Shown here in pieces: positions 10,957 to 43,978 of a stretch of 64,000 nt of DNA (the stretch's first letter is position 1; every line of letters starts with the position of its first letter). Position numbers and translations under genes: made by a program. Origin of the DNA: Saccharofermentans sp. (GTDB lineage Bacteria > Bacillota > Clostridia > Saccharofermentanales > Saccharofermentanaceae). The notes beneath the pieces are model-generated. The model worked only from the letters and a program-made list of their open reading frames with translations. It was not told where the DNA came from and did not search any database. Location of the stretch: positions 1 through 64,000 of the forward strand of contig JAKSRD010000007.1 in assembly GCA_024403795.1 (NCBI GenBank). The letters are read 5' to 3'.

Positions 10957-12633
10957 TTACTTGAAAGTATCCTTCGTGATCGTCAATTTTTTATCATAAT
11001 TCGCGTCGGTACACATCACTACCGTGAAGTTATCAAGATCATATACACAAGACCACTCTGTTCCGATACCGTTTGACGCCTTGTTGTCATAACCGACATC
11101 TGCCAGGAAGCCCATCGCCTCTTCAGAAGAAGCAACACAACCGCATTTGTCGAGGTCTTCCATGATCACCTCGTAACGTCCGTCACCCTCTTCTTCACCA
11201 TAGAATGAAGTATCCGAGATAATGAAATTTGTACAAGCCGGTGCCTCGGTAACATGCATCTCATCGCCCAGCCACTCGACAACAACGCTCTTTCCCGTCT
11301 TATCCGTCATAAAAAGATGGAAAGTCGCACCAAGCATGGTATTCATGTCAAACTGATCAAGTAAAGCAACCGCCTCATCAACCGTCGCACACTTGTCGAG
11401 CGTGGCTCTTACTGCAACATTAAGGAGGATATCCTTGCGTCCCGTATCCTGATGTATCTCATCGAATTCAAGCTGAAGTATCGACACGCCGAATCCCGCT
11501 TCGTTCATTCCCTCAACGATCATGTAGGGCATTGCCAAAGTAGCGGCACGGCCTATAAAAGAGTCAGTCGGGATCATGCCCTCTTCGTTACCTATGTTAA
11601 CAATATGGAGATCCACCATTCCGATGGACTCGTAACCGTCCTCGGGATCGCAATAGATCATGAGGCAATCTGCTTCAGGATAATCGGTGTTTCTTCCCAT
11701 CAGATGTCTGCCGTCAGTATCGGTAACCGCAAATGCCGCACAACCGAAGAGATTCTCTTTCATCGAGATCGGAAGACCGTGATATATCTCACCGGCAGCC
11801 CAGTCAAGAAGCTCATTTTCCGTAGTGAGATTTGCTTCAAGGACTTCGTCCAGCTTATAGTCAGAAGTGCATTTAAGCGAATACACTCCTTCAGAGTATT
11901 GCTTCAAGGATGTTACGGTAGCAAGTTCTTTTCTGAACACGATCAGCGTAGCGCAGATCGAGATCAAAAGAACTCCCGCAAAACCGATAATGATCGTTCT
12001 TGCCTTGAGCTTAAAAGAAAGCGCGCAAACAAGTGCAACCAAAGCGCCGACGATCGCTGCAATCAACCCAACTGTCTTCAGTAGCGCAAAGTTAACGGAA
12101 TGACCGGCATCAATGACCAGATGAGACATAGAGTCATCGAACGCTTTATTTCCTTCAGCAGAGGCAAGATACTCACATGTATCTACAAACGCCGGATCGG
12201 CATCCGGTTTCTCTTTAACGATTTCATAAATGGACTGATAGTAGTTCGCAAAAAAAGCCAGTACGTATTCTCTTGTATCATCCGGACACGCTTTAACAGT
12301 GACATCGACCAAGAGCCTGCCCTCATCATCCTTATCGGCTACATATAAGCCTGCTGAATATTTATCGAGCTTCAGTCCTGTTACGATGATCGTAATACCT
12401 TCTTCGCCTGTACTGTCATAACAATCATATGTTGAGATCGAATCATCAATAGCATTCAAGTACTCCAAGTCGATAGCAACCGTACCTTTCGCTCCTTCCT
12501 TGAATGAATCAGGATCCCAAAGATCGATTATGTTGTTGCTCGCATTCGTACCTAATATTGTTCCGGCAACAAAAACTCCCGCGCCTGCAAGTGCAACTAT
12601 CAACGAGATTATCAGCACTACTTTCTTAGCCAT
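10957..12633 (-). CDS. Membrane-anchored Ntn-type linear amide C-N hydrolase
   Basis: A 558-residue protein. The start at 12633 (MAKKVV) is chosen because GGGGGA lies 5 nt upstream; a start ten codons earlier lacks such a site. An N-terminal membrane segment (2-24) is followed by about 160 extracytoplasmic residues, two further membrane segments (about 185-233) and a C-terminal Ntn hydrolase domain. That domain resembles the choloylglycine hydrolase/penicillin acylase/C45 group: a candidate nucleophile Cys298 in FGCAAF, then GRNTDYPEADC and NFIISDTSF. Such enzymes cut amides such as conjugated bile acids or acyl-homoserine lactones. In this protein Cys298 is not N-terminal, so activity would need cleavage before it. 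Confidence 0.75.
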   Translation of the reverse strand: MAKKVVLIISLIVALAGAGVFVAGTILGTNASNNIIDLWDPDSFKEGAKGTVAIDLEYLNAIDDSISTYDCYDSTGEEGITIIVTGLKLDKYSAGLYVADKDDEGRLLVDVTVKACPDDTREYVLAFFANYYQSIYEIVKEKPDADPAFVDTCEYLASAEGNKAFDDSMSHLVIDAGHSVNFALLKTVGLIAAIVGALVALVCALSFKLKARTIIIGFAGVLLISICATLIVFRKELATVTSLKQYSEGVYSLKCTSDYKLDEVLEANLTTENELLDWAAGEIYHGLPISMKENLFGCAAFAVTDTDGRHLMGRNTDYPEADCLMIYCDPEDGYESIGMVDLHIVNIGNEEGMIPTDSFIGRAATLAMPYMIVEGMNEAGFGVSILQLEFDEIHQDTGRKDILLNVAVRATLDKCATVDEAVALLDQFDMNTMLGATFHLFMTDKTGKSVVVEWLGDEMHVTEAPACTNFIISDTSFYGEEEGDGRYEVIMEDLDKCGCVASSEEAMGFLADVGYDNKASNGIGTEWSCVYDLDNFTVVMCTDANYDKKLTITKDTFK

Positions 12634-12831
12634 ACTATCCCCCAAAGATTCGTTAATCTTCAAGTATCCTTACATTATAATTTATGAGTGTCAAGGAAGT
12701 ATCGGTGCACTGCAGAATAACCACCGCAATCATTAAACACGCAGAACGATTTATGACGCTTTCACATGATCGGAAGCAGTATGCCATTACTCATTTTCCG
12801 CCTTGGATCGGTCCTCCTAAGTGCCTGTTTC

Positions 12832-13125
12832 TTTGTCGGTTTGCTCAGGTGCTTTGTCGGTTTCTCTTCGTCCTATCGAGACTTTCTTGTCACTTTTTGT
12901 CGCAATTCACACTTTTTCAAAGTTACTTTGTCTTACATCTTGTCGTTCATAGCACGCTTTTGTCTGTAGCGTGGTTTTGTCGATGTAATCGACAAAACAC
13001 GACAAAAACGCACAACAGATGCGACAAGGTTCCGTACAAAAACAACAATGTCTCGCATTAAGACGACAAAACACATCAAAAGCCCGCAATGAACACTGAA
13101 AACACCGCATAAAAAACGACAAGGA
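12832..13125. repeat. Mirror-symmetric TTTGTCG / CGACAAA array
   Basis: The first half carries repeated TTTGTCG-like words (12832, 12853, 12897, about 12940, 12977) and the second half carries their complement CGACAAA (12990, 13000, 13062) or CGACAA (13021, 13117). At the centre TTTTGTCGAT (12975-12984) and ATCGACAAAA (12988-12997) form a perfect 10-bp palindrome. No gene is visible; reading frames here are low-complexity and lack ribosome binding sites. I see nothing clear in 12634-12830. Confidence 0.8.
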
Positions 13126-13289
13126 AACAGACTTCATCGATCGTTATTTTACGGGTCGATGCATCAAGAAGATCAAGTTAAAAAGGTCTCTTCGGAAAGT
13201 TGAGAGAATAAAGAATTAACAAGCAGCAAGAAAACAGGCTTCGACTATAAGGAGGACGATTAGTGATTTACACAGGATCGATAAATATC

Positions 13290-13655
13290 AATTCCACGCA
13301 AATGCATTCTGATGACGGGCAATAGCACCTGAAGGCTTCGCCGTCAATGGTCGTAAACTTGCCTTCGCGCCATTGACTGCTCGCCTTTGCAGGTGCTGAA
13401 TCAGTGCTCAAGAGGTCGGATGCCCGACCTCGCATCTTGTGCTGCCGGTCTTTACAACTATCGATACTATTCGCAACCGGCCTAAACACCCGAAACAGAT
13501 CAGCCGACTGCTGTCAAGGCCGTCAGCATTCGCCAGAATGTGCCGCAGGCAGCCTTGACGACTTCAAGGCGGATCTGTACAAAGACTCCGTCCGGTTGCG
13601 ATGAGTCAATCACAAGAACAATAAATGCCCGGCAACACCTGCCGGGCATAATCGT
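13290..13655. ncRNA. Strongly structured RNA candidate of unknown class
   Basis: At least six long complementary pairs nest in an RNA-like way. AGCACCTG (13324-13331) pairs with CAGGTGCT (13390-13397), extended by AAGGC/GCCTT. GTCAATGG (13343) pairs with CCATTGAC (13370). GAGGTCGG (13412) pairs with CCGACCTC (13424) around a 4-nt loop. TCGCAACCGG (13471) pairs with CCGGTTGCGA (13592) and encloses ACAGATC (13495)/GATCTGT (13572), which encloses GTCAAGGC (13513)/GCCTTGAC (13552). No reading frame here looks like protein. Strand is not certain. It does not match RNase P, tmRNA, SRP or 6S as I know them. Confidence 0.65.
13625..13649 (-). terminator. Terminator hairpin downstream of the M13-ABC operon
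   Basis: ATGCCCGGCA/TGCCGGGCAT, a 10-bp GC-rich stem with a 5-nt loop. The minus-strand 3' side (TTTATTGTTCTT) is the more T-rich, which fits termination of the operon ending at 13691. It could also end the structured RNA if that is on the plus strand. Confidence 0.6.
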
Positions 13656-13690
13656 CTTTAGTTATTGATCAGACTGATAATATCAATAGG

Positions 13691-14503
13691 TCAAGCTTCT
13701 GCATTTGCATCTGATGCATCATTTGCTTCAGTACCGGCTTCAGCATCAACAACTTCACCAGCACTTACGCCGTCAGAAGCCGCTTTTTCGATGCCTACTG
13801 TCGCAGCAACAGCATCTATGTCAGCGTCTGAATCAACTGTCTTTCCGTTCTCGAGGAATACGGTTCTTGTGCCGTATTTTGCACAGTCTGCAGAGTGTGT
13901 TACCTGAAGGATCGTAAGGCCCTTCTCTTTGTTGAGTCTTGCGAAGAGATCCATGATCTCCTTTGTGGATGCGGCATCAAGGTTACCTGTAGGCTCGTCT
14001 GCGAGAATGATGGAAGGATTGCCGAGTACTGCTCTTGCGATTGCAACTCTCTGCTGCTGTCCGCCGGAGAGCGTGTTAGGCATTGCCTTGCGCTTAGCGG
14101 TGAGTCCGGTGATCTCAAGGATCTCGTCGAGTTCCTTCTTAAGCTCGGACTTCTTCTTGCCGTTGATCGTCTGAGGAAGAAGGATGTTATCCTGAACGTT
14201 GAGATTCATTACGAGATTGTAGAACTGGAATACAAAGCCCATGTTCTTGAGACGGATATCGGAGAGCGCCTTGTCCTTCAAAGTACCGATGTCTTTACCG
14301 CAGACGGTGATGTTCCCTTCGTAATTGCGGTCAAGTCCTCCGATGAGATAGAGAAGCGTCGACTTACCGGAACCGGATGCACCCATGAGGGAGACGAATT
14401 CGCCTTCCTCGACGGACATGCATGCACCGTTCAATACTTGGTTGAGGCTCTCACCTTTACCGAATGTCTTGCTTACGTTGTTTACTTCAATTATCTTACC
14501 CAT
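13691..14503 (-). CDS. ABC transporter ATP-binding protein (LolD/MacB type)
   Basis: The ATPase of an exporter, 270 residues. Walker A is GASGSGKST (about 40-48), the signature LSGGQQQR, and Walker B ILADEP. The first 225 residues fit the LolD/MacB/FtsE-like group, which pairs with FtsX-type permeases such as its upstream neighbour. Unusual is a C-terminal tail of about 45 residues made almost only of Ala, Asp, Glu, Ser, Val and Gly, which is not part of the ATPase fold. It starts 19 bp after the permease stop and is last in the operon with the M13 peptidase. Confidence 0.93.
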
Positions 14504-14522
14504 TTTATTTATCTCCCTTAAA

Positions 14523-16979
14523 TTACTCGTACTTAATCTGTTCTGCTATCTTCATCTTCCTGAGATTCTTTATCGGGAAGAGTACCGTTGCCGAGAATGC
14601 CAAAGCAAGAAGGATGAAGAATAATACATTGATCATCGGATTGATCGCGATGTTTATGTGGATCGACTCTGAACTGCTGAGTCCGGCATTTACAACATAT
14701 GTTAAGAGTGTTCCGCACAGCGTACCGATACCGGAAGCCGTGAATGAAGTGATGAGCACTTCCTTCCAAAGAATGGAGGCGAGCTTAGCTTTGTTCATTG
14801 CGGTGGAGAGCATTACGGCGCACTCCTTCTTTCTTCCTTCAAAGCCGATAAGCTGATTGGTGATCATGCCGATCGCAGTCATTACGAATGCTATTACGAC
14901 TACGGCTATGGTTATTGCGTTAGAAGAACGATTATCATTCTCGAGGCTGTCATTCAGTTCCTGTAAAGTCTGAACCGCAGTAAACGTTCCCTTGCCGTAG
15001 GTCTCGAGTTTTCCTTTCAACTCATCCGGATTGTCGCATTTAACGAGGACCTCTCCGGGGATGTCTGAAAAGATCGCCTGATACTCCTTCAAAGAGATAA
15101 CAAATGTATCGGCCGCATCCATAGTAAGTGTGTTAGTTGTCAATGCCTGTATCGTGTATTCTCTGGCAATCGGAAAAACACCTTCGGGATCGATCGTTAA
15201 CGTGATCTTGTCGCCGACCTTGTAGCCTTTTCGCTCAGCAAAACCCTCACCGACTATGATGTTTCCGGGTTCTATGCTGTCAGGCATGTTTTCAAAACCG
15301 GTGTAGTATTTGAAACCGCCGTCAGGCATTCCGTAGATGAATCTCATTGCAATGGCATCGCTGTCATCAATGGAGACAAAAGTCGTGCAGTAATACAAAG
15401 CCTCAACATCCTCGACACCGTCCAAATGTTCGATGTAGGAATAATGCTTCATTTCCATTGTCGTGGTAAGCGTCAGATCGTTCACATAAGGCACCTTATC
15501 CATTGACTCAGAAAGACCAGATGCAATGGCAAAGATTACGATGCACATTGCAGCTGCCGTAACACTTAAGATACCGCTGCTGACCGTACTCTTACGTGAG
15601 ATGGCTTCTGTTGCCGCCAGGGACCATGAAGCGCTACCGGCATTATCGGCAAGCTTTCTGATACCGCTCGTAACAAGTCTTAAGATGACCGGGAAAAGAA
15701 GTGCAAGTGCCGCAATGGAAGCGAATACACATCCGATCGCACCGATTATGTTAGTTCTGAAGAAGAACAATACTACTGCTAATACAAAACATACAAGACC
15801 TGCAATGAATCCTGACTTGCTGAAATCATATTTTGTATCTCTGTTGTCAAAGATAATATCTCTTACAGATGTGTTCAATGCCTTAAGGATGGCTCTTAAC
15901 GGAAGTGCGCATTCGATAACGATCGCACCCAGAACAACACCGATTATCATTCCGATGCTGAGCGGCGGGATGGTGACATTGACAACCGTACCCTGCACTC
16001 CAGCAGAGAAGAAGAAGCCTAAAGCAACGCTTCTGATAAGTGAGTAGAGCGCCACTGCAGGGATGCTTCCCAGCAAAGCATAGAGTGTATTCTCAAGCAA
16101 AAGGATCAATCCCGTGCGTGTACTGCTCATTCCGAGGCTTCTGAGTGTTCCGATAAAGGACATTCTCTCGGAAACGATCCTGTTGCAGATCGAAGCCGTT
16201 ACAAAAACAACGAGAAGAAGTGCAACAGCAAACAGGATGTAGAAGATCGACTGAATCTCATCGAAGACCGACAACTGCGAATCACTCAAGGACAGTTCCT
16301 GAATGGATATGCCCGGATAGGCATCTTTCAAGATATCTTCTGCCTCTTCGATCCTGCTGTCATCTATGACATCGATCATTAACATGTCAGGTTCTTTATC
16401 ACCGCAACAAAGGATATCGCTCGTGTTGAGATTTATTATCGCGCTGTTTTGCTGAAGCAACGGATTCTTTACGTCTTCAGGAATAGTGCCGCCCACGGTA
16501 AGCTCTACCTCGTTATCGGCTCTGTCGTGAAGCGTGATCTTATCACCGGCTTCGTATTCGTATTCTTCGGCAAATGTATAAGAAAGCCAGATCTCGTTAT
16601 CTTTGACATCGATGCCGGAGATGAATTCCATCTTATCAGCGACTTCAAGATCAACACCGAATATGGTAAGAGTGTCTGTGGAAACATAGCAATACTCGCC
16701 GTCGATCTTGTTATAAACGATCTCGTTATTGCCGTACACTTCCATATATTCCGCTTCCGGAAATCCGTCAGGAAGATTGTCCATTCCGGTGGTATTTACA
16801 TAGAAATCCGCCTTGGATACTCCGCCAAGAAAACCCTTGAGTACATCGGTAATGCTGCTCAAAAGGTCAAAACACAGAAAACCGGAAATGCTGCATACAA
16901 AGATTGAGAAAACCACAAGCAAGGTACGAAGCGGTTTACAGAATATGTTCTTTAATGAAGTTTTCAATATAGTATTCAT
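14523..16979 (-). CDS. FtsX/MacB-type ABC permease
   Basis: An 818-residue permease with two FtsX-like membrane blocks. A first membrane segment (about 17-37) precedes a large extracytoplasmic domain, a membrane block at about 240-370 and further segments near 395-450. A second N-terminal-like segment (about 475-500) leads to another extracytoplasmic domain and a last membrane block (about 700-810). This is the usual layout of bacitracin/lipoprotein-type exporters and mechanotransmission ABC systems. It lies between the M13 peptidase and the ATPase with gaps of about 20 bp, so all three are likely cotranscribed. Confidence 0.92.
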   Translation of the reverse strand: MNTILKTSLKNIFCKPLRTLLVVFSIFVCSISGFLCFDLLSSITDVLKGFLGGVSKADFYVNTTGMDNLPDGFPEAEYMEVYGNNEIVYNKIDGEYCYVSTDTLTIFGVDLEVADKMEFISGIDVKDNEIWLSYTFAEEYEYEAGDKITLHDRADNEVELTVGGTIPEDVKNPLLQQNSAIINLNTSDILCCGDKEPDMLMIDVIDDSRIEEAEDILKDAYPGISIQELSLSDSQLSVFDEIQSIFYILFAVALLLVVFVTASICNRIVSERMSFIGTLRSLGMSSTRTGLILLLENTLYALLGSIPAVALYSLIRSVALGFFFSAGVQGTVVNVTIPPLSIGMIIGVVLGAIVIECALPLRAILKALNTSVRDIIFDNRDTKYDFSKSGFIAGLVCFVLAVVLFFFRTNIIGAIGCVFASIAALALLFPVILRLVTSGIRKLADNAGSASWSLAATEAISRKSTVSSGILSVTAAAMCIVIFAIASGLSESMDKVPYVNDLTLTTTMEMKHYSYIEHLDGVEDVEALYYCTTFVSIDDSDAIAMRFIYGMPDGGFKYYTGFENMPDSIEPGNIIVGEGFAERKGYKVGDKITLTIDPEGVFPIAREYTIQALTTNTLTMDAADTFVISLKEYQAIFSDIPGEVLVKCDNPDELKGKLETYGKGTFTAVQTLQELNDSLENDNRSSNAITIAVVVIAFVMTAIGMITNQLIGFEGRKKECAVMLSTAMNKAKLASILWKEVLITSFTASGIGTLCGTLLTYVVNAGLSSSESIHINIAINPMINVLFFILLALAFSATVLFPIKNLRKMKIAEQIKYE

Positions 16980-42096: not shown

Positions 42097-43281
42097 TTAT
42101 CTGCTCTGAACCTGTGATTTCTTATATGACAGAACAAGGAACAGTACAAGGATTATCGACAGGCCGAGATACAGGATCGTCGTTAATTCAACATTATTGA
42201 AAACTCCGTATCTATATGTGTTACAGAACGTTCCGTAGTATAGCGCCATTGACGGTCTCAGCTGCCAGAGCTTCGCGATAAGGCCCAGCTTACTCGGCAC
42301 ATTGAACAGCCCCGCAAAGATGATTCCCGCATGGATCGCCATTGTCGCAACCGCCGATTTTGTAAGGTGTGATAACACCATGTTCGTAATGGCAAAGAAG
42401 ATGCTCGACAATATTGCGAGACCGGCATAAATGAGGATCATTTCTCCGATGGTAATGTTCCACGGCGAAGACGGAATAATGATCTGGATAGGAGCATTCC
42501 AGCCATCCGCTCCATAGAACAGGAATTCAATTCCGATACAGGAGCCCAGAAGAACCAGCGTCTGCAGCAGTGCGGCTGTAATGCTTGCAGCGATCTTCAC
42601 AAGACAGATAGGTGTTCTTCCGTTCTTTGCAGACAGTATCATCGCATCGGTCCTGTGAGTCTTCTCATCCGCAAAAACACCCGAGAGAGCTATTGCAATA
42701 TTCAGGATCAGAGCCCATCCGATAATGAACAGCACGTCAAGAACATTCTGATAAGACAGTGCATATGAATATTCGATCGGCTTCTCCACCTTATCAAACC
42801 ACTGAAGCCATTCATCAACTTCCTCCTGAGTACAGCCGAGTTCCAGTCCGTCTGATTCAATGTCTTTTCTCATCTTCTCATAGAACTCGTCAGCCGTTAC
42901 GTCGATAACCGCATCCTTGCTTCTGACAGTGTTATAGATGACATCATATAACGCTTTCATTCCGGCAGATTCTGCAGCTCTCTTGTATGCTTCTCCGCGG
43001 TCATATTCAAGCAGACTGTTGTACTGATCGGGGTGCTCATCGAGTTCTTTTTGTACCGTGCTGTGGAACATCTCAAAGAATTCATCATCCATCTTCTGTC
43101 CCGAGATTGCACCCAAAGTCTTTTCCTGCTGCTTCACATACACGCCCTTGCCGTCTGCCGAGAAGTTCGTAAATCCGACCAGGAGCACCAATGCCAGACT
43201 GAGCAGCAATGCTATCCACACCGACTTCTTGGAAAGTATCTTCCTAAGTTCGGCTTTATACAAAACAGCCATCTTACTCAT
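42097..43281 (-). CDS. ABC-2 type permease
   Basis: 394 residues from the ATG at 43281, with GGAGG 8 nt upstream; it overlaps the ATPase gene by 8 bp. A first helix (about 18-38), a large outside domain of about 150 residues, then five helices to the C-terminus (KKSQVQSR). It forms an exporter with the ATPase just upstream; the substrate is not readable. Confidence 0.88.
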   Translation of the reverse strand: MSKMAVLYKAELRKILSKKSVWIALLLSLALVLLVGFTNFSADGKGVYVKQQEKTLGAISGQKMDDEFFEMFHSTVQKELDEHPDQYNSLLEYDRGEAYKRAAESAGMKALYDVIYNTVRSKDAVIDVTADEFYEKMRKDIESDGLELGCTQEEVDEWLQWFDKVEKPIEYSYALSYQNVLDVLFIIGWALILNIAIALSGVFADEKTHRTDAMILSAKNGRTPICLVKIAASITAALLQTLVLLGSCIGIEFLFYGADGWNAPIQIIIPSSPWNITIGEMILIYAGLAILSSIFFAITNMVLSHLTKSAVATMAIHAGIIFAGLFNVPSKLGLIAKLWQLRPSMALYYGTFCNTYRYGVFNNVELTTILYLGLSIILVLFLVLSYKKSQVQSR

Positions 43282-43978
43282 CCTCACTTCCTCCGAACTC
43301 TTTAAGATAGAATGTCTCCAGATCCTCGTTAATGTCTGAGATATTTCCGTCAAAGATGATATTGCCTTCCTTCATCATGAGGATCCTGTCGGCAATATGC
43401 TCGACGTCCGACACAATGTGCGTAGAAAGGATGACTATCGCATCTTTTCCAAGCTCTGCTATGAGATTTCTGAACCTTACTCTCTCCTTCGGATCAAGTC
43501 CGGAAGTGGGCTCATCCAGGATAAGGATCTTCGGGTCGTTAAGAACAGCCTGCGCGATTCCAAGACGCTGCTTCATTCCGCCCGAATATGTCTTGATCTT
43601 CTTATTCGCAGCATTCTCCAAATTAACGGTCTTTAACAGCTCATTACACTTTCTCTTAGCTTCTGACTTATCAAGACCTTTGAGCGCCGCCATATACATC
43701 AGGAAATCCATTCCGGTAAAATTCGGATAGTACCCGAAGTCCTGAGGAAGATAACCCAATGCATCCCTGTACATCTCATCTGAAGCATCCATGCCTTCAA
43801 AGCTGATGGTGCCGCTGCTGGGATTCAGTATTCCGCAGATCATTCTCATCAGAGTCGTCTTACCCGCACCGTTTGCTCCCAGCAATCCGATGACACCCGG
43901 CTTAAGATTTACCGTTATCCTGTCAACCGCTATTTTGCTCGCATACTGCTTTGTAACGCGGTCCAAAATCAATTCCAT
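43274..43978 (-). CDS. ABC transporter ATP-binding protein
   Basis: 234 residues from the ATG at 43978; the in-frame upstream part belongs to the overlapping membrane gene. Walker A GANGAGKTT (about 34-42), signature YSGGMKQRL, Walker B ILILDEPTSGLDP. It overlaps both neighbours by about 10 bp, so the four-gene operon is tightly coupled. Confidence 0.92.
   Translation of the reverse strand: MELILDRVTKQYASKIAVDRITVNLKPGVIGLLGANGAGKTTLMRMICGILNPSSGTISFEGMDASDEMYRDALGYLPQDFGYYPNFTGMDFLMYMAALKGLDKSEAKRKCNELLKTVNLENAANKKIKTYSGGMKQRLGIAQAVLNDPKILILDEPTSGLDPKERVRFRNLIAELGKDAIVILSTHIVSDVEHIADRILMMKEGNIIFDGNISDINEDLETFYLKEFGGSEDE

Follow-up and report, generated by a model that had tools for sequence, protein, structure and literature searches.

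A covarying two-module repeat of Saccharofermentans is probably a gene-less mobile DNA element linked to a new nuclease family

A 283-bp feature at positions 13323-13605 of the window (the whole 64,000-nucleotide stretch of Saccharofermentans DNA analysed here) is, with a probability of about two in three, a non-autonomous mobile DNA element of a new nuclease-linked family, gene-less in the manner of MITEs and REPINs. It would be built from two terminal modules in inverted-end orientation, one of L type and one of R type, which enclose no gene. The element is dispersed, is modular in two parts, keeps a defined polarity at nuclease genes, covaries symmetrically with respect to the DNA strands, and differs in presence between genomes. 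The features of the region are listed below; arrowheads (> and <) give the orientation of modules and genes.

13323-13605, + strand: composite L>R> element, 283 bp, with 11 bp between the modules and no ORF of its own
13323-13457, + strand: L module, imperfect palindrome; covariance model R2, 147.9 bits; covariation in 51 copies; occurs alone and at nuclease-element ends
13323: outer boundary of L, TAGCACCTG
13325-13331 and 13390-13396: L helix P1, outer hairpin, GCACCTG with CAGGTGC
13343-13350 and 13370-13377: inner helix within P1, GTCAATGG with CCATTGAC
13403-13412 and 13482-13491, + strand: possible cross-module pairing, imperfect here, AGTGCTCAAG with CTAAACACCC, from composites compared by sequence
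13412-13419 and 13424-13431: L helix P2, tetraloop hairpin, GAGGTCGG with CCGACCTC
13432-13445: L helix P3, GCATCTTGTGCTGC
13469-13605, + strand: R module, three-level palindrome; covariance model R1, 147.4 bits; covariation in 33 copies; occurs alone and as R<gene>R>
13471-13482 and 13590-13601: R closing helix, TCGCAACCGGCC with GTCCGGTTGCGA
13496-13506 and 13570-13578: R second level, CAGATC region with GATCTG region
13513-13521 and near 13551-13559: R third level, GTCAAGGCC with the GCCTTGAC strand
13526-13541: R innermost hairpin, GCATTC with GAATGT
near 13603: outer boundary of R, GGTTGCGAT
12833-13122, no strand assigned: neighbouring second repeat, five TTGTCG followed by five inverted CGACAA, palindrome centre near 12985 (Poisson 3e-13, post hoc)
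13625-13649, - strand: terminator-like hairpin outside the element, immediately 3' of the ABC gene (13691-14503); its T-tail is better on the - strand

When both strands are read and folded, the region shows all the helices that an earlier note on this DNA had named. The minimum free energy of the + strand is -146.2 kcal/mol; shuffles average -109.5 (z -7.3), and none of 100 attains the observed value. The - strand also folds well (z -5.2), as the DNA is nearly palindromic. There is no gene inside the stretch, and its GC content (0.555 at 13324-13604) exceeds that of the flanks (0.405 upstream, 0.484 downstream), both as first described. The GC-rich hairpin at 13625-13649, previously considered a possible closing part of the structure, is instead a separate, terminator-like hairpin that faces the ABC operon. 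All neighbouring genes lie on the - strand: a choloylglycine-hydrolase-like membrane protein at 10957-12633, and an ABC ATPase with an FtsX/MacB-type permease at 13691-16979.

When reversed, the R module has its motifs in the same order as L (GCCGTCAAGG...CCTTGACTGC, followed by GTGTTCA), which makes R a probable inverted and diverged form of L. A candidate pseudoknot between the two modules, AGTGTTCAAG with CTGAACACC, is changed on both sides in the lineage of loci L007 and L008, but not in L012. Similarity of L and R at this candidate is expected in any case should R be related to L by inversion and divergence.

In its own, incomplete genome, a DNA search places the element at three sites: the window, a 94% copy on contig C4 and a partial 88% copy on contig C10 (5423-5622), which contains L. 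The C4 copy (43101-43407) matches the window copy over 307 bp and has unrelated flanks; the similarity ends at 13309 and 13614, with no likeness beyond. Among 99 genomes searched in this way, the element is found in 16 of the 59 from Saccharofermentans, its own included, and in none of the 40 from other genera. Its hosts are rumen and gut Clostridia of this genus. Since many copies hold only L or only R, two covariance models were built, which detect R in 24 and L in 23 of 85 genomes of the genus. Most copies of both modules stand alone with no detected partner (42 clusters for L, 40 for R). The remaining arrangements are L>R> pairs, L>...L< pairs and the ends of gene-carrying elements of ~1.2 kb. 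Twelve L>R> composites were found, ten of them with a spacing of 10-11 bp, while the L>...L< doublets measure ~570-680 bp and contain no nuclease ORF. Nearly all sampled modules (34 of 36) lie outside ATG-initiated ORFs of at least 120 aa, and copies favour intergenic spots beside gene ends and terminators.

Occupancy differs between related genomes. At one gene end, L>R> is present in genome G054, and L without R in G026 and G045; in eight more distant genomes the gene end that carries L>R> in G054 (site B) gives no BLAST match to the element. A short R-like sequence seen by eye at site B in G121 may be a kept remnant. A second site, compared between G026 and G045 (site A), was considered as an empty site and rejected in favour of decay, as G045 keeps a remnant of R. 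These remnants, in G045 and perhaps in G121, indicate that decay is mixed with insertion. At the loci inspected we found no clean single-event empty site and recognised no target-site duplication, the boundaries being blurred by flanking repeats. A joined-flank search with four more doublets returned a conserved nuclease hot spot and no clean empty sites. Loci retrieved from relatives through the ABC gene have neither the hydrolase neighbour nor the element.

Pairing is conserved across the copies, as the earlier note had proposed to check on homologous regions. In R, 95.9% of 1374 cells pair in 33 copies, with two-sided changes at 25 of 42 pairs; in L, 94.8% of 1883 cells pair in 51 copies, with two-sided changes at 31 of 38 pairs. 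None of 500 shuffles matches the observed covariation for either module, and sliding the partner by 1-3 columns lowers pairing to 28-45% in both. This covariation excludes chance, and the conserved structure is real. Covariation is a hallmark sought in structured RNA, but it is also expected of DNA palindromes.

Mispairs can help to distinguish the two cases. If selection acts on an RNA, G-U should be tolerated on the RNA strand; a DNA palindrome has no such strand. In the modules taken together, G-U (G-T in DNA) and A-C appositions occur 41:55. The numbers are 13 and 16 in R, with one invariant column left out, and 28 and 39 in L; strand-specific tolerance of G-U over A-C is absent on either strand. 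In contrast, the SRP RNA of the same genus (30 loci) has 43 G-U and 3 A-C appositions. The difference between modules and SRP RNA gives a Fisher p of 1.4e-9, which is indicative only, because the cells of related sequences are not independent. Selection thus seems to act on DNA palindromes, and the symmetric mispairs, together with the inverted modules at both ends of elements, argue for DNA rather than RNA. Even strong covariation between bacterial genes is, taken alone, no proof of an RNA, and comparing G-U with A-C by strand is a simple test that can help to separate the two.

We consider it unlikely that the feature is a large structured non-coding RNA, as the earlier note had proposed. 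Such an RNA would form a new class encoded in several copies, of which some lie 3' of a nuclease gene that the RNA works with, comparable to the omega and reRNAs of IscB and TnpB. Besides the covariation of both modules, this reading draws on the frequent position of modules 20-100 bp 3' of a nuclease gene, on a whole L>R> composite that follows such a gene on the same strand in genome G034, and on one invariant G-U column in R. Against it stand the mispairs, the separate occurrence of the halves as independently dispersed palindromic modules, and the inversion of L at both element ends, by which any transcript would carry sense and antisense forms. Promoter-like sites are absent from 12600-13800, which is weak evidence. 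Rfam gives no match in the whole window at the gathering score, and at E<=10 the region yields only sub-threshold chance matches, none of them to raiA, OLE, ROOL, GOLLD or HEARO; membership in the known large classes that had been suggested (raiA, OLE, ROOL) is therefore not borne out. The RNA reading is disfavoured rather than disproved, and the earlier interpretation as a whole is partly supported.

The mobile-element reading derives its main evidence from a family of nuclease genes bordered by the same modules. Directly read examples comprise L>gene>L< elements of ~1.2 kb with a 267-aa ORF, and R<gene>R> elements of ~1.15 kb with an ORF of 241-249 aa. Full-length relatives measure ~1.15-1.24 kb and have a single gene, for a protein of 241-267 aa, with inverted L or R at the ends. 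A tabulation of modules and ORFs contains nine gene>L<, seven L>...L<, three R<gene>R>, three L>gene>L< and two gene>R> arrangements, and single cases of L>gene, R<gene and gene>L>R>. Roughly 27 of ~150 modules adjoin a nuclease gene, compared with ~0.3 expected by chance under a rough uniform model. Their polarity is consistent: L> lies 5' and L< 3' of the gene, R< lies 5' and R> 3', and the sole exception is the G034 composite. L> is never found alone 3' of the gene and R> never 5' of it. No L- or R-ended element with a recognisable transposase was seen, and at many nuclease genes neither an L nor an R module was detected.

The nuclease genes form at least three groups, and the two ORF groups described above are homologous at ~25% identity. 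The protein belongs to an undescribed family that is not represented in Pfam; neither Pfam nor NCBIfam has a family above cut-off, and a sequence-profile search of the PDB returned nothing meaningful. Weak matches exist to resolvase/endonuclease families in PHROGs and to the C-terminal end of the candidate system PDC-S68 in PADLOC. Two distant relatives from the window's own genome (L140, 1492-2334; L141, 1057-1842) resemble the same C-terminal end of this candidate defence protein with their C-terminal half (E about 1e-25). An AlphaFold2 model built from 37 sequences has a pLDDT of 89. Its residues 116-254 superpose on I-Bth0305I with a Z-score of 9.0 (94 residues, rmsd 2.8), followed by Bax1 (8.2), TnsA (8.1) and Vsr (7.2); the best scores, ~8-9, are modest, and Foldseek alone gave a weak result. 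The residues S143, E146, D178 and E193 are conserved or almost conserved. SxxE, PD and E are kept in the family, and the usual lysine of PD-(D/E)XK is replaced (EI[LF]G or EHxG). On the basis of the model, we predict a PD-(D/E)XK nuclease fold.

Within the order, 129 of 188 genomes carry the family, as do nearly all genomes of the genus, and a single genome may have as many as 14 matches. Almost every Saccharofermentans genome contains several copies, and the family is rare in the phylum. Its cultured carriers include Ruminococcaceae bacterium YAD3003 and AB4001. Viral contigs and phage and plasmid collections gave no match. The element ORFs have no match to the Y1 HUH transposase (Pfam Transposase_17) or to TnpA/TnpB families, so they do not qualify as IS200/IS605.

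We infer that the enzyme reads the palindromic ends, in the form of a duplex, a cruciform or single-strand hairpins, cleaves the DNA at these ends and moves the gene-less copies in trans. RAYT transposases are thought to do likewise for REPs and REPINs. Compensatory changes might be kept because the enzyme must read the hairpin, or template switching might correct the palindrome. Hybrid L+R elements would need one enzyme for both end types, or two enzymes.

Inverted REPs lie on both sides of RAYT genes, and complementary mutations preserve the REP palindromes (PMC2817692). The Saccharofermentans modules resemble the REP/REPIN-RAYT system (PMC2817692, PMC3116915) in that the palindromes are dispersed and intergenic, inverted pairs flank a gene, complementary mutations keep the palindrome, gene-less doublets are dispersed, and at least one nuclease group is inherited vertically at a fixed chromosomal spot. 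They differ in their size (~137 bp, comprising several helices, as against 20-40 bp) and in the predicted PD-(D/E)XK fold in place of a Y1 HUH transposase. With the MITEs of classical insertion sequences they share short, gene-less, multicopy forms and inverted ends common to a gene-carrying element, but here there is no DDE transposase, no target-site duplication was seen, the ends are very long and structured, and there are two end types. Homing endonucleases of the EDxHD / PD-(D/E)XK type such as I-Bth0305I have a comparable predicted catalytic fold, a small nuclease with an N-terminal part, and a selfish-looking spread. Unlike these, the nuclease described here is bounded by long palindromic modules, was not seen in viral contigs and is too distant in sequence for a PDB profile search. 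HEARO/OMEGA RNAs with IscB or TnpB likewise present a structured element of ~200-300 nt that is tied to a nuclease gene and also occurs alone; the modules differ from them in lacking an Rfam match, a RuvC/HNH family match and RNA strand bias, and in being inverted at both ends.

We tentatively suggest, at somewhat less than even odds, a new class of bacterial transposable element in which a small EDxHD/TnsA-like nuclease recognises multi-hairpin ends of ~137 bp to move DNA, gene-less doublets such as the one in the window included, in functional parallel to REP-RAYT and with an unrelated fold. Populations of palindromic repeats would then be linked to a nuclease with no relation to HUH or DDE transposases, providing a second, independently evolved model for the spread and persistence of such repeats. 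Nothing on such elements in Saccharofermentans was found in the part of the literature covered.

An alternative to which we give little weight is that the modules are host-useful dispersed palindromes, similar to REP or BOX, that act in regulator binding, at 3' ends or in supercoiling and were spread by past recombination, the nuclease being uninvolved or having been domesticated as a regulator. In Streptococcus pneumoniae, BOX elements are modular, dispersed intergenic repeats that fold, as the modules do; the likeness is one of description only, and unlike the modules BOX elements are not known to have a nuclease partner. A host function would fit the preference for gene ends and terminators, the conserved chromosomal spot of group-3 nuclease genes in many genomes, and the operator-like motifs upstream of groups 1 and 3 (TGAGACT...AGTCTCA in group 1, TTGTCG repeated at steps of 9-10 bp in group 3). 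It does not account for oriented, inverted modules around nuclease genes well above chance, nor for 94% identical copies in unrelated contexts, which point to nuclease-linked mobility.

The spot in question lies between genes X and Y (L369-L388), where many Saccharofermentans genomes carry a group-3 nuclease gene. In genomes G099 and G005 the spot is occupied by a gene-less doublet, and others show shorter spacers. TTGTCG is common to the 12833-13122 array of the window, the sites upstream of group-3 genes and the interiors of L>...L< doublets, which suggests that the arrays are putative binding sites of the group-3 nuclease. Triple direct repeats of TTGTCG precede group-3 genes at L138 (1401-1425) and L139 (2253-2277), both from the window's own genome, and at L369-L382, in many cases accompanied by an inverted CGACAA close to the -10 region. 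From their position, these upstream repeats look like autoregulation.

It is very improbable that another transposase, for example that of an insertion sequence with hairpin ends, moves the element with the nuclease gene as a passenger: solitary modules do far outnumber nuclease-linked ones and some modules are bordered by other palindromic arrays, but in the examined elements of ~1.2 kb no full-size plausible gene other than that of the nuclease lies between the modules. Nuclease elements are also flanked on the outside by arrays of short palindromic motifs (L093, L103, L151, L153, L154 and L163, and the right side of L296). These may be target sites or a further layer of binding sites, and their motifs differ from element to element: TTCACGGC, GTTCACCGA, CCCGGC, TACGGC, TTACTGTA and TTACTTGCTGA.
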